DNA from: an uncultured Methylococcaceae bacterium
GTDB taxonomy: Bacteria; Pseudomonadota; Gammaproteobacteria; Methylococcales; Methylomonadaceae
Direction of reading: 5' to 3'
Length of the DNA stretch: 64,000 nt
NCBI GenBank assembly: GCA_903859415.1
Contig: CAIOMN010000236.1
Location: 1 to 64,000 of the forward strand
A program made the position numbers and the translations under genes. Below the pieces are notes generated by a model that saw only the letters and a program-made list of their open reading frames with translations, was not told the origin of the DNA and did no database searches. Every line of letters starts with the position of its first letter. Positions within the stretch are counted from its first letter, which is position 1. Positions 29,774-34,250 of the stretch are shown piece by piece.

Positions 29774-30670
29774 TTACGCCTCTGCTTCAAGCGTTTTGCG
29801 TGCTTCATCTAACATTTCTAATTGGGCCTCAGACAATTTAGGGAATTTAAGCTCTAAGCCTCTTAAAGTTGAAGTAATAATATCTGCGACTAAAGCCCGG
29901 GTTACCCATTTATTATCCGCAGGAATAATATACCAAGGGGCAGACTCAGTATTAGTTACTCTAATAGCCTCTTCATAAGCATGCATATAATCAGTCCAAT
30001 AGGCTCTTTCAGAAAGATCGGCTGCAGAAAACTTCCAATTCTTCTCGGGACGCATTAATCTGTCCATAAAACGTTTCTTTTGCTCCTCCTTAGAAACATT
30101 CAAGAAAAACTTTATAATCACGGTACCATTCCGAACCAAATGACGTTCAAAAGTATTGATATCTTCGTAACGATTCTCCCAAAAAGCACTATTTCTCTTA
30201 CCATCAGGTAAATTCTTAAGCAACTCAGGATGAACTTTAACCACAAGCACATCTTCATAGTATGAACGATTGAAAATACCGATTCGACCTCTTTCTGGTA
30301 AATTCTTCATATACCGCCAAAGAAAATTATGATTCATCTCCTCATCCGAAGGCTTTTTAAAACTAAAAACCTGGCACCCTTGTGGATTTACACCCGACAT
30401 CACATGCTTAATAGTGCCATCTTTACCCGCTGCATCCATCGCCTGAAAAATAATTAACAGAGAATAACGATCATCCGCATATAACAGTTGTTGTGCTGAG
30501 GTCAATTCCACTAGATTTTGCTGCAAAAGAATATTTACATGCTCCTTTAATTTATCCTTACCATATTCTTTGAGCCCTTCAATCTGAGTCCACCCCGTAT
30601 CAAAGTCTTTAAGATGAATCTTTTTGCCTGGTAAAACACGTAAATGATCGTTATATTCTTGTTTTATCAT
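29774..30670 (-). CDS. ppk2: Polyphosphate kinase 2 family protein
   Basis: A 298-aa polyphosphate:nucleotide phosphotransferase. The single PPK2 domain has Walker A AMDAAGKDGTIKHVMSG (about residues 78-94), Walker B RIGIFNRSYYEDV (about 131-143) and the lid RFMDRLMRPEKNWKFS (about 197-212). PPK2 enzymes use polyphosphate to phosphorylate NDP or NMP. The polyphosphate:AMP/ADP subgroup (class III-like) is likely from length and lid sequence, but substrate cannot be fixed by eye. Monocistronic. Confidence 0.9.
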   Translation of the reverse strand: MIKQEYNDHLRVLPGKKIHLKDFDTGWTQIEGLKEYGKDKLKEHVNILLQQNLVELTSAQQLLYADDRYSLLIIFQAMDAAGKDGTIKHVMSGVNPQGCQVFSFKKPSDEEMNHNFLWRYMKNLPERGRIGIFNRSYYEDVLVVKVHPELLKNLPDGKRNSAFWENRYEDINTFERHLVRNGTVIIKFFLNVSKEEQKKRFMDRLMRPEKNWKFSAADLSERAYWTDYMHAYEEAIRVTNTESAPWYIIPADNKWVTRALVADIITSTLRGLELKFPKLSEAQLEMLDEARKTLEAEA

Positions 30671-30781
30671 CTGTATATCCTGTTAGTAATGAAGTAAATG
30701 ACACCAAACAACAAATTAATCTCCTTAATGGAATCTTTGGCATAATAAAGGCTTCTGACGAATACCGGCAAACAACTCAAC

Positions 30782-31420
30782 ATGAATCAAAAAAAGCGAC
30801 TAGCCATTTTTGACAAACTATCACTGGCAATCCCAGAACCTAAAACAGAGCTTATTTATAACAGCCCCTTTGAATTATTAATTGCGGTAGTCCTATCAGC
30901 ACAAGCCACTGACAAAAGTGTCAACAAAGCTACTTCAGTCCTATTTGCTATTGCCAATACACCTCAAGCAATTTTAGAACTCGGTTTAGCTGGCTTAAAA
31001 GACTATATCAAAACCATAGGTCTATTTAATACCAAGGGGGAAAACATTATTACACTTTGTCAGCAATTATTGAAACACCATCAAGGCGAAGTACCAAAAA
31101 ACCGCGAAGAACTTGAAGCTCTGGCAGGCGTTGGTAGAAAAACGGCCAACGTTATTCTTAATACCGCTTTTGGACTACCCACTATTGCCGTAGACACACA
31201 TATCTTTAGGGTGTCTAACCGAACTGGATTAGCGCCCGGTAATACCGTTTTAGAAGTAGAGAACAAACTCAATAAATGGGTGCCAAATCAACATAAAAAA
31301 GATGCTCACCATTTACTAATTTTACATGGCAGATATACTTGTGTAGCCAGAAAACCTAAATGCAACAGTTGTATCATTGAAGACTTATGTGACTTTAAAG
31401 AAAAACTCAATGAGAGCTGA
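30782..31420 (+). CDS. nth: Endonuclease III
   Basis: A 212-aa base-excision-repair DNA glycosylase/AP lyase acting on oxidised pyrimidines. The helix-hairpin-helix LAGVGRKTANVIL carries catalytic Lys120, and Asp138 lies in VDTHIFRVSNR. The four cysteines of the [4Fe-4S] cluster are at 187, 194, 197 and 203, the same positions as in E. coli Nth. Monocistronic; hvfA starts 160 bp downstream behind its own promoter. Confidence 0.98.
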   Translation: MNQKKRLAIFDKLSLAIPEPKTELIYNSPFELLIAVVLSAQATDKSVNKATSVLFAIANTPQAILELGLAGLKDYIKTIGLFNTKGENIITLCQQLLKHHQGEVPKNREELEALAGVGRKTANVILNTAFGLPTIAVDTHIFRVSNRTGLAPGNTVLEVENKLNKWVPNQHKKDAHHLLILHGRYTCVARKPKCNSCIIEDLCDFKEKLNES

Positions 31421-31516
31421 ATTATTACTTACCCAAATTCTACATAAAGTTAGCCTGAACTAACCACAGCATCACTAAAATAAATGTATATTCCTTCTTT
31501 ATTTTTTGGTCTTTGG

Positions 31517-31553
31517 TATGATAGTTACATTCGATAAACCTAATTTATCGAAT
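31517..31553 (+). promoter_or_regulatory. Promoter and inverted repeat upstream of hvfA
   Basis: An extended -10 element (TGG then TATGAT at 31517-31522) is followed at 31529-31553 by a perfect 10-bp inverted repeat, ATTCGATAAA and TTTATCGAAT, separated by CCTAA. Transcription would start at about the left edge of the repeat, so it could be an operator at the start site or a hairpin at the very 5' end of the mRNA. The start codon is 27 bp further on. No convincing -35 element was found, which suits an activator- or extended-10-dependent promoter. Confidence 0.55.
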
Positions 31554-31579
31554 ATTTATAATAATATATGGGAGCCAAC

Positions 31580-32011
31580 ATGAAAAAAATCAACAAAACA
31601 CCTTTAGCAGCGGCTATGGGTGCAGCTTTAATTTCAACTTTGTCAGTCAATGTAGCTAATGCAGAAGCAAACCCTTTTGGAATGACTGAACTATCTACTG
31701 GCTATATGCAAGTTGCTGAAGCAGGCAAAACAGCAGAAATGGCTTGTGGTGCATCAATGAATATGGCTAAACCTAAAACTCCAGAAGGCGCTTGTGCGGG
31801 TAGTGCAGCACCAGCAAAAAAAGGGACTGAAGGCTCTTGTGGCGATATGATGAAAGACGGCAAAATGAAGCCAGGTATGGAACACGCTTGTGGTGCTATG
31901 ATGAAAGGCAAAGAAGGTGCTTGTGGCGAAATGATGAAAGGCGAATCAATGAAAGGCAAAGAAGGTGCTTGCGGTGCAGGTATGACACCCCCAGCGACTC
32001 CAGCTAAATAA
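31580..32011 (+). CDS. hvfA: HvfA/bufferin-like RiPP metallophore precursor
   Basis: A 143-aa precursor peptide. A Sec signal of about 28 residues ends ANA-EANPF, and the NPFGMTELSTGYM leader-like stretch that follows is the HvfA hallmark. The remainder is low-complexity, rich in Lys, Gly, Met and Ala, with six cysteines in repeated contexts: EMACG, EGACAG, EGSCG, EHACG, EGACG and EGACG. In Haemophilus HvfA, Cys in EGKCG motifs is converted by HvfB/HvfC to oxazolone/thioamide groups that bind copper; bufferins carry related modified Cys. The ATG at 31580 has GGGAG upstream. The partner genes follow directly. Confidence 0.85.
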   Translation: MKKINKTPLAAAMGAALISTLSVNVANAEANPFGMTELSTGYMQVAEAGKTAEMACGASMNMAKPKTPEGACAGSAAPAKKGTEGSCGDMMKDGKMKPGMEHACGAMMKGKEGACGEMMKGESMKGKEGACGAGMTPPATPAK

Positions 32012-32088
32012 AAATTAACACCGCTAACTTGGAGGGTAATAACACTTTGCCCTCCAATTCAAAACTCAATAACTCAAAAGGTGTTCAC

Positions 32089-32940
32089 ATGGACACAACC
32101 CCATTTTTATTTGAAGGGGCTGGCTTAGGTCTACGAAGACCCCTTATTACCCAGTTTCTCGAAACACAACCTAAAGAGGTCAGTTTTTTTGAGGTAGCGC
32201 CGGAAAACTGGATCACCATTGGTGGCAAATACGGTAAAGCTTTTCGTGCAATGACCGAACGCTTTAATTTTATTTGTCATGGCTTATCATTATCACTCGG
32301 TAGCACTGACCCCTTGGATGAAAAATTCATCCGGGAAATCAAACAATTTATGACGGACCATAACATCAAACTTTACAGTGAACACCTCAGTTACTGCAGT
32401 AAAAATGGTCACTTATATGATCTTATGCCGATTCCTTTTACCTCCGAAGCCGTCAGTCATGTCGCTGAACGTATTAAACGCGTTCAAGACATTATGGAAC
32501 AAAAGATAGCGGTTGAAAATGTCTCTTATTATGCTGCACCTGGCCAAGAGATGACGGAAATTGATTTCTTCAATGCTGTCGTTGAAGAAGCGGACTGCAA
32601 TATTTTGATCGATATTAATAACATTTACGTCAACAGCGTTAATCACCAGTATGATGCAGAAGCTTTCTTAAAAGCCATCCCTGCTCAACGTATCGCTTAT
32701 GCACACATTGCCGGACACTATGCAGCAGCCGATGACTTTTTAGTTGATACCCATGGCGCTGATATTATTGATCCCGTTTGGCGTCTTTTAGGTAAAGCCT
32801 ACGAACTCTATGGTGTTTTTCCTACCTTATTGGAAAGAGACTTTAATCTACCCCCAATAGCTGACTTATTAAAAGAAGTTAATATCATCAGAACGATGCA
32901 AAGTACTTGGCAAACCCAACATGAAAAACGTTATGCATAA
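32089..32940 (+). CDS. hvfB: DUF692 multinuclear iron oxidase, RiPP maturase
   Basis: A 283-aa TIM-barrel enzyme of the DUF692/MNIO family, related to methanobactin MbnB. Metal-ligand motifs are spread as expected: EVAPENW (about residues 32-38), FICHGLSLSLG (about 60-70), SEHLSYC (about 98-104), ENVSYYA (about 143-149), DINNIYVNSVNH (about 175-186) and HIAGHY (about 206-211). It would modify cysteines of the neighbouring precursor using O2. The ATG at 32089 with AAGG upstream is preferred to a TTG at 32029. It overlaps hvfC by 20 bp. Confidence 0.9.
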   Translation: MDTTPFLFEGAGLGLRRPLITQFLETQPKEVSFFEVAPENWITIGGKYGKAFRAMTERFNFICHGLSLSLGSTDPLDEKFIREIKQFMTDHNIKLYSEHLSYCSKNGHLYDLMPIPFTSEAVSHVAERIKRVQDIMEQKIAVENVSYYAAPGQEMTEIDFFNAVVEEADCNILIDINNIYVNSVNHQYDAEAFLKAIPAQRIAYAHIAGHYAAADDFLVDTHGADIIDPVWRLLGKAYELYGVFPTLLERDFNLPPIADLLKEVNIIRTMQSTWQTQHEKRYA

Positions 32941-33694
32941 AACGCTTGTGCCTGTAGACTTTAAAGCTAAACAAGCAGAATTTGCCGCCTATATCAGAGA
33001 CCCTGATAAAAATCCGCCTCCTGCGGATGTTAAAGAACAACGGATACAGATGTATAGAGAACTGTTCTTTAACAATATTGAGGGCTTTCTATCCGGCAAC
33101 TTTCCAGTTTTAAAAAAGATACTCGGTGAATCGCAATGGTTAACATTGGCTGAAGATTTCTTCGCTAAACACCAATGTCAAACGCCCCATTTTTCGGAGA
33201 TTCCTGAAGAATTTCTAGACTACCTACAAAATGAGCGTGATAGTTCGGAAGACTATCCATTTATGTTAGAGCTTGCGCATTATGAATGGGTAGAAATGGC
33301 GCTATCTGTATCAAGAGATGAAACTAGTCCAGAAATTCCCAAACTCGATAACCTGCTTAACCAAACACTCGGTTTATCGCCTTTAGCCTGGTCATTAGCC
33401 TACCAATACCCTGTCCATAAAATTGCACCCGGATTCTTACCTCTAGAAGCACCCGAACAAGCTACTTTTCTGATTGTCTATCGAGATCCAGCCGACGAGG
33501 TTAATTTTATTGAGATAACTGCAATGACTTACCGATTACTGGAAATCATTCAGGAACAAGACAACTCAAATACCGAAACATGTTTAAAACAAGTTGCAAA
33601 AGAAATGAACCACCCTAATCCGGAACTTGTGATTTCAGGAGGCCTACAAATACTTAAGGACTTAGCTGAAAAAACCATTGTTTACAGGGTGTAA
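32921..33694 (+). CDS. hvfC: DUF2063 RiPP recognition partner protein
   Basis: A 257-aa partner of the DUF692 enzyme. The N-terminal DUF2063 domain shows QAEFAAYIRDPDKNP and the RIQMYRELFFNNIEGFLSGNFPVLKKIL segment (about residues 17-70). A C-terminal winged or RRE-like region follows that is thought to bind the precursor leader in this family. It lies inside the end of hvfB and is translationally coupled to it. A hairpin follows. No DoxX-type membrane protein (HvfD) or regulator is linked here. Confidence 0.88.
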   Translation: MKNVMHKTLVPVDFKAKQAEFAAYIRDPDKNPPPADVKEQRIQMYRELFFNNIEGFLSGNFPVLKKILGESQWLTLAEDFFAKHQCQTPHFSEIPEEFLDYLQNERDSSEDYPFMLELAHYEWVEMALSVSRDETSPEIPKLDNLLNQTLGLSPLAWSLAYQYPVHKIAPGFLPLEAPEQATFLIVYRDPADEVNFIEITAMTYRLLEIIQEQDNSNTETCLKQVAKEMNHPNPELVISGGLQILKDLAEKTIVYRV

Positions 33695-33717
33695 AAGCCA
33701 ACAGGAAAACGCTTAAG

Positions 33718-33745
33718 GTGTCGGGTTAGTTAACCAACCCGACAC
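33718..33745. terminator. Bidirectional terminator hairpin after hvfABC
   Basis: A perfect 10-bp GC-rich stem, GTGTCGGGTT with AACCCGACAC, around an 8-nt loop that itself contains AGTTAACC. It lies between convergent hvfC and the lipoprotein gene and is followed by a T-rich stretch on the plus side (TCTTATTT). Confidence 0.7.
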
Positions 33746-33767
33746 TGACTCTTATTTAAATCAAGCG

Positions 33768-34250
33768 CTAGAAAAGTTTATTAAAGAAGCCTTCCTTCTT
33801 AACTTCAGGCACCTGATACGTTTTAAAACCTTTATCTATCGGTTGTTGCTGCGTGCAATGATAAGCCGCACTATTAAACTTGATTTGTAACGAACGTGGA
33901 TTTTCATGCTCATCCAGGTATTTCTCAACCTCTTCATCCGTTAGATCTTTAAGCATAAACGTGGTAACGCATTCACACGATTTAGTAAAACGCACCTTAT
34001 CTTCTTCTACGTTAACCGAATTCTTTAGCTCTCTTACGACACATTGTGCTGCAAAAGCATCATGAAACTTATGCTTTTCAGCCACAGTAACAGGTGCATC
34101 TTGAGAATGATCAAAAGGATTAAACACTGTTTTAACGGGCGTCTTTTTTTGTTCTTTTTCGGCATCAGAACAACCCGTAACAGAGAGTGCAAAAATTGAA
34201 CAGGTCAAAGCGACAAGAAATAAGTTTTTTGTAAAGCTGTGTATTTTCAT
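33768..34250 (-). CDS. Hypothetical lipoprotein
   Basis: A 160-aa protein with a type II signal peptide: basic N-terminus, hydrophobic core LFLVALTCSIFALS and lipobox SVTGC (Cys about residue 27). The mature part has four further cysteines (AAQCVV, KSCECV, YHC), suggesting disulfides or metal binding, and an acidic helix LTDEEVEKYLDEHE near residue 104. No family recognised. Monocistronic and convergent with hvfC; no functional link is implied. Confidence 0.65.
   Translation of the reverse strand: MKIHSFTKNLFLVALTCSIFALSVTGCSDAEKEQKKTPVKTVFNPFDHSQDAPVTVAEKHKFHDAFAAQCVVRELKNSVNVEEDKVRFTKSCECVTTFMLKDLTDEEVEKYLDEHENPRSLQIKFNSAAYHCTQQQPIDKGFKTYQVPEVKKEGFFNKLF

Follow-up and report, generated by a model that had tools for sequence, protein, structure and literature searches.

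A Met-rich, Lys-poor oxazolin-type HvfABC operon from an uncultured Methylococcaceae bacterium

The stretch of DNA analysed here (the window; 64,000 nucleotides of contig CAIOMN010000236.1) carries, at positions 31580-33694, an hvfA-hvfB-hvfC operon of three closely spaced genes, all on the plus strand. To judge by open reading frames and sequence, the operon is real and well formed and belongs to a known kind, the HvfB/HvfC oxazolin type (Buf_EGKCG, captophorin), and the feature that deserves attention is the design of its precursor, rich in Met and poor in Lys. We consider it likely that the operon specifies an oxazolin/captophorin-type RiPP with six thiooxazoles that would bind Cu(I) in the periplasm and provide copper buffering or storage in a methanotroph. 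The most likely product is a thiooxazole peptide that binds Cu(I) in the periplasm; we infer both the chemistry and the copper binding by analogy with characterized systems.

The assignment follows from the two enzymes. The hvfB gene (32089-32940) encodes a 283-aa MNIO (DUF692) enzyme that matches PF05114 with 355 bits and the HvfB equivalog NF003818 with 442.5 bits, above the NCBIfam cut-off of 360. The hvfC gene (32921-33694), which overlaps hvfB by 20 bases, encodes a 257-aa partner with DUF2063 and an RRE-like domain (NF050145, PF09836, PF22106), scoring 322 bits on the HvfC equivalog NF050145 against a cut-off of 142. The earlier note, which had called an HvfABC/bufferin operon with a DUF692 oxidase and a DUF2063 partner 3´ of the precursor, was therefore right about the gene order and the oxazolin-type enzymes, both above the curated cut-offs, but the bufferin label, taken strictly as BufB, is not borne out. 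HvfB scores 270.8 bits on the BufB equivalog (cut-off 310), which rules out filing the operon with the bufferins, and 48.9 bits on the MbnB equivalog, far under the cut-off of 325, which likewise rules out filing it with the methanobactins. No Pfam or NCBIfam family matches the precursor, which is not a DUF2282 protein. The nearest solved structure to HvfB is 3bww, and the Asn and Asp/His residues that match the published iron site lie in corresponding blocks of the alignment between the two; a solved relative of HvfC is 3dee (NGO1945).

Because the closest relatives that bear names are uncultured Methylococcaceae, Methylobacter and Crenothrix, the organism is almost certainly a methanotroph of the Gammaproteobacteria; its genome also encodes two PF02461 (methane/ammonia monooxygenase) proteins. 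hvfB is the sole MNIO gene and hvfA the only precursor copy found in the genome, and since there is no second MNIO, the sequence gives no sign of methanobactin. Upstream of the operon lie genes for polyphosphate kinase 2 and endonuclease III (29774-31420). Downstream, on the minus strand and convergent to hvfC, is a lipoprotein-like 160-aa ORF (33771-34250) with several Cys and no Pfam or NCBIfam family, and beyond it are the PurE and PurK genes. None of the genes adjoining the operon is a copper gene or regulator.

The precursor gene, hvfA (31580-32011), lies upstream of the MNIO gene, as in oxazolin systems, and encodes a Met-rich protein of 143 aa with six Cys modules. Translation likely starts at 31580, a position kept in most relatives; an alternative ATG at 31568 overlaps the ribosome-binding site GGGAG (31570-31574), whose GGAG is invariant in 28/28 aligned sequences. 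A Sec signal peptide is predicted at 31580-31663, with cleavage after ANA, as judged by eye. It is followed by a conserved leader, EANPFGMTELSTGYMQVAEAGKTA (31664-31735), with N31-PFGMTEL and GYMQ invariant in 14/14 aligned precursors, and this leader is the probable recognition region. The modules then follow as EMACG (module 1, 31736-31750), EGACA (module 2, 31784-31798), EGSCG (module 3, 31829-31843), EHACG (module 4, 31880-31894) and EGACG twice (modules 5 and 6, 31913-31927 and 31961-31975). The six Cys reported earlier, in three canonical EGxCG sites and three variants (EMACG, EGACA(G) and EHACG), thus agree with the sequence. E-x-x-C-[GA] holds for 6/6 Cys, a context seen for at most three in 20,000 shuffles of the mature part. 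Because none of the six modules is EGKCG and three are EGxCG, while all fit E-x-x-C-[GA], we file the precursor by its sequence as a variant rather than a typical EGKCG member. Lys immediately precedes Cys in none of the modules, 15 of the 115 mature residues are Met, and a Met lies 3-4 residues past the Cys at 5/6 Cys (shuffle P = 0.0025).

Much of what the variant modules could have revealed about enzyme rules is already described for a close enzyme, FonBC (PMC12668002, of which we draw on the text concerning motif tolerance, residue contacts and copper binding). This enzyme pair takes every tested non-Pro residue at position 2, rejects just one non-Pro residue, Arg, across positions 1-2, tolerates Ala, Arg and Thr at position 3 and, besides Gly, accepts Ala alone among the tested residues at position 5. 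Its contacts include Arg15/Arg16 with Glu1 and Phe250 with the residues at positions 3 and 5, and the peptide that it makes binds up to four Cu. By this comparison EMACG, EGACA and EHACG each fall within FonBC tolerance, taken one position at a time, and since non-Pro residues are taken at position 2 and Ala at 3 or 5, all six Cys sites are probably modified. The earlier proposal that the variants would test the rules of the enzyme has therefore been largely overtaken for the single changes and keeps its force for the double change in EGACA, which does not appear in the PMC12668002 text on motif tolerance. The window HvfB carries the corresponding residues, LGLRR (Arg 16-17) and ERDF (249-252; the catalytic Asp, then Phe); six compared loci carry LGLRR a few residues further along HvfB. 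The Phe after the catalytic Asp was found in 46/46 methanotroph-type sequences and in 38/41 others, with three unmatched by the pattern, and as it is kept throughout the matched sequences, there is no co-variation of this residue with loss of the substrate Lys.

To place these modules in a wider context, 110 loci were compared, with 80 named HvfB loci retrieved for the comparison. A precursor was found upstream in 96, of which 87 are distinct, and none in 14, some of which lack upstream sequence, while eight extend upstream by more than 1 kb and six of the eight by at least 1.5 kb. By HvfB identity to the window, the distinct precursors divide into 32 (>76%), 14 (68-76%) and 41 (<=68%). We call the first two classes methanotroph-type, their titles being mostly Methylococcaceae or Methylococcales and one just Gammaproteobacteria; L068, also Methylococcaceae, sorts into the <=68% class. 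Precursors were chosen by their count of E..C[AG], which makes the E, C and G/A columns partly circular, and positions 2 and 3, the choice of Gly or Ala, and Met were not under direct selection by this picking. Five loci with methanotroph-type HvfB (L052, L057, L062, L063 and L065) have no recognisable precursor ORF within 2.3-4 kb of upstream sequence; their precursor could be encoded at another place or belong to a different type.

Two of the variants prove to be fixed. Module 1 is EM[A/K/S]CG in 32/32 distinct precursors whose HvfB is >76% identical, and the Ala after the module 2 Cys is likewise present in 32/32, written with four synonymous codons (GCA 21, GCC 5, GCG 3, GCT 3). From these counts, the variants of modules 1 and 2 are fixed features of a conserved lineage design rather than decay. 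It could be argued that the repeat array drifts neutrally and that module sequence has no function beyond E and Cys, and position 2 of module 4, which varies freely among the 32 close precursors (Ala 17, Met 6, Gln 5, His 2, Lys 2), fits that account. We nevertheless hold it improbable for the array, and for modules 1-2 the sequences disfavour it, given the unbroken Met and Ala, the latter through four codons, and the recurrence of EMxCG and ExxCA in distant members of the order (5/10 and 8/10 loci).

The same conservation invites another explanation, in which modification is partial and EGACA, perhaps EMACG as well, keep free thiols, so that thiooxazole and thiol ligands are combined by design. 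Modules 1-2 are distinct throughout the 32 close precursors, as against EGKCG elsewhere (347/378 Cys), and FonBC is strict at position 5 (PMC12668002, motif tolerance). FonBC does, however, process Ala at 5 and Ala at 3, in separate variants (same text), and the E and Cys of modules 1-2 are conserved; we regard partial modification as unlikely, and modification of all six sites as the better reading, with full modification of module 2 a conjectural part of it.

The earlier note had also suggested that the His of EHACG could add a second type of metal ligand. His does occur here and, as EHVCG, in the closest relative (L032/L003), and EHxCG is found in a few other loci (L036; L178, L186, L205). 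The homologous site, however, holds His in just 2/32 close precursors, and the median number of His per Cys is low in methanotroph-type and other precursors alike, which leaves a ligand role for His very improbable. As read from these sequences, the module 4 His is sporadic, one of several alternatives and minor; the conserved extra potential metal ligand is Met.

The change from Lys to small residues and the gain of Met extend across the lineage. Among 332 Cys of methanotroph-type precursors, the preceding residue is Ala in 173, Ser in 75 and Lys in 53; among 378 Cys of other relatives, it is Lys in 368 and Ala and Ser in three each, so that Ala or Ser stands in place of Lys at 248/332 versus 6/378. 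Homogeneous EGKCG repeats prevail outside the methanotroph-type set (347/378 Cys), and Ala directly follows Cys at 45/332 methanotroph-type sites versus 1/378 others. The median Met fraction of the mature part is 0.121 (0.014-0.161) in methanotroph-type precursors and 0.042 (0-0.102) in the others. Met at +3/+4 of Cys falls with HvfB identity, from 151/202 (>76%) and 87/130 (68-76%), together 238/332, to 38/378 (<=68%). In the window these traits meet in a Met-rich supramodule, CGDMMKDGKMKPGMEHACGAMMKGKEGACG (31838-31927), with the core K-M-x-x-G-M-E-x-x-C-G-x-M-M-K-G-K-E-G-x-C-G. The core is present in 32/32, 11/14 and 0/41 precursors of the three classes, and the supramodule is repeated as a whole block, in 2-4 copies, in L036, L041, L042, L044, L050 and L055.

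A wider sample bears on the age of these traits. HvfB is present in 55/61 genomes of the window's own genus, family and order, and a profile built from 14 precursors found matches in 131/151 genomes of the order and 82/369 of the class. The loci taken first were the best-scoring ones, among which L150 gave no precursor, and 29 weaker own-family loci were added for that reason of selection by score. The best-scoring own-family loci (n=31) have Lys before 45 and Ala/Ser before 147 of 235 Cys, with the supramodule in 28/31, and the best-scoring loci elsewhere in the class (n=25) have Lys before 149 and Ala/Ser before 8 of 176 Cys, with the supramodule in 0/25. The weaker own-family loci have Lys before 71 and Ala/Ser before 123 of 237 Cys, the supramodule in 18/29, Met in the first module in 13/29 and at least one E/D-x-x-C-A in 20/29. 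In ten loci from other families of the order, the supramodule is absent, ExxCA occurs in eight and EMxCG comes first in five, and Lys precedes 52/60 Cys. From the counts for the weaker loci and the other families, we therefore take ExxCA and EMxCG to be old within the order, and the loss of Lys and enrichment in Met to be chiefly traits of the window's family, though not of all its members.

Two further arrangements were noted among the compared loci. In L041 and L042, and also in L177, another Cys-module precursor stands in tandem immediately upstream of the first, so that a single enzyme pair may have two substrates there. Long precursors with an extra C-terminal block beside the usual modules occur at L127, L131, L136, L139, L142, L144 and L145; these blocks carry non-standard Cys (e.g. 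MKGCG, MKNCx, GxQCG), outside the tested motifs.

Several non-coding parts of the operon are also conserved. An extended -10-like element, GGTATGATA (31515-31523), has nearly invariant columns in 28 aligned close relatives and is the probable operon promoter, though it is absent from the list of a generic sigma-70 scan, and generic promoter and terminator scans performed no better than on shuffles. The 5´ UTR alignment of 28 close loci leaves out L036, L037 and L038 for length and L064, the one close locus without the GGTATGATA pattern as searched. Downstream lies an inverted repeat, ATTCGATA...TATCGAAT (31529-31553), that may act as an RNA hairpin or as an operator. Its arms pair in 98.0% of 196 cells across the 28 relatives, with six double-side changes and three U-G cells, and ATTCGA-N9-13-TCGAAT has this repeat as its single site in the 3.72 Mb genome. 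The single-sequence fold was no better than shuffles (z 0.05; the folded piece began 4 bases inside the 5´ arm), so it is the alignment that argues for pairing. Because the spacing of the TTCGA/TCGAA arms varies by about one base (12 to 14 in aligned rows), the sequences lean towards an RNA hairpin over a protein operator.

A second hairpin, between hvfA and hvfB (32029-32057), folds at -21.4 kcal/mol (z -5.36, 0/200 shuffles) and is paired in 97.9% of 240 cells in 30 relatives, aligned without L027 and L064; four pairs and 20 cells are changed on both sides. As there is no T run behind it, we infer a role in stabilising or trimming the precursor mRNA, not in termination. After hvfC, a terminator-like hairpin with an 11-pair stem lies at 33717-33746; such matches are about as common in shuffles (3 found versus a mean of 2.2). 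A search of Rfam gave no match up to E 1 within 31400-33800.

Together, these data suggest a model in which HvfC would bind the Met-rich, presumably Sec-exported precursor through the conserved leader and the iron oxidase HvfB would convert the Cys of all six E-x-[A/S]-C-[G/A] modules to 5-thiooxazoles, each with an expected loss of ~4 Da. Once exported, the modified peptide could bind periplasmic Cu(I) through its thiooxazoles, conceivably assisted by the Met thioethers 3-4 residues downstream, although Met could instead serve redox protection or flexibility. Methane monooxygenase of methanotrophs needs copper; the peptide may buffer or store copper, and a link to this enzyme is conceivable. 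We favour the thiooxazole-peptide reading because HvfB and HvfC exceed the curated cut-offs, the motif-reading Arg pair and ERDF of FonBC are present in HvfB, and the iron-site residues match in the 3bww alignment. It also draws on the E..C[GA] context of 198/202 Cys in the 32 close precursors, whose ORFs were picked partly by that motif, on the preservation of the module 2 Ala through synonymous codons, on the two PF02461 proteins in a genome with no second MNIO, and on FonBC, which takes the same single changes and whose peptide binds Cu (PMC12668002, motif and copper text). Against it, the FonBC data come from a different species, and the core that FonBC prefers carries Lys ahead of Cys; the operon has neither a copper gene nor a copper regulator next to it, and EGACA joins two changes that the FonBC text does not combine.

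A more specific proposal, which we offer tentatively as possible though not probable, is that the family's oxazolin is a Met-rich, Lys-free Cu(I) carrier with thiooxazole-Met pairs, in which modules 1-2 have jobs of their own, serving particulate methane monooxygenase. If so, each thiooxazole would be paired with Met thioethers 3-4 residues on, EMxCG and EGxCA might, for instance, be modified in another way or left unmodified, and the peptide could take the place of methanobactin in periplasmic copper handling in species without methanobactin. Special roles for modules 1 and 2 are speculation. Thiooxazole copper peptides are a recently recognised and very widespread class, and a large natural set in which Lys is replaced and Met added in a fixed module order would test how the enzyme reads its substrate and how the peptide holds copper, in methanotrophs, whose methane oxidation is controlled by copper supply.

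The closest comparison is with hvfABCX of nontypeable Haemophilus influenzae, in which HvfBC turns six Cys of HvfA into 5-thiooxazoles (PMC13419390). The two share the order of precursor, MNIO and DUF2063/RRE partner, repeated E-x-x-C-G and the HvfB/HvfC models, and a signal peptide is predicted by eye for the window precursor too. Unlike hvfABCX, the window operon has no adjoining DoxX (HvfX) and no Lys before Cys, and its precursor is Met-rich with a heterogeneous module order in place of the 17-residue EGKCG repeat. The genes next to hvfC are the minus-strand ORF and purE/purK, and both DoxX matches in the genome fall in a single open frame of 1217 codons on a different contig; we rejected the absence of DoxX as a special feature, since the typical relatives L070 and L080 also lack it just after hvfC. 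Methanobactin MbnABC likewise uses an MNIO on Cys of a methanotroph copper peptide, but the window has no MbnC-type partner and its precursor would be exported by a predicted signal peptide. With the bufferins Buf1/Buf2, as described in the main text of PMC12452194, the operon shares an MNIO with a DUF2063 partner, a predicted Sec precursor and a proposed copper role; it differs in its BufB score and in a precursor that is not DUF2282. The Microbulbifer mmr cluster, in the part of PMC12538549 on its genes, has an EGKCG-type precursor (5-8 Cys), MNIO and DUF2063 in common, and the Microbulbifer Lys is kept in every listed unit of L089 and 5/6 of L094, unlike in the window. Fontiphorin FonABC of Fontimonas thermophila, in the captophorin class, has the same type of enzyme pair with the motif-reading residues present, but FonA uses EGKCG, by the motif description in PMC12668002, and the window precursor has none. 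Of the ~2,000 Buf_EGKCG precursors, of two types, neither type is described as Met-rich in the main text of PMC12452194, where "Methylo" and "methionine" give no match, and among the papers retrieved by literature search none describes, by title or abstract, a Met-rich methanotroph oxazolin. Judged by sequence against these systems, the kind is already known, and the distinctive part is the lineage's own conserved version of it, Met-rich and poor in the usual Lys.
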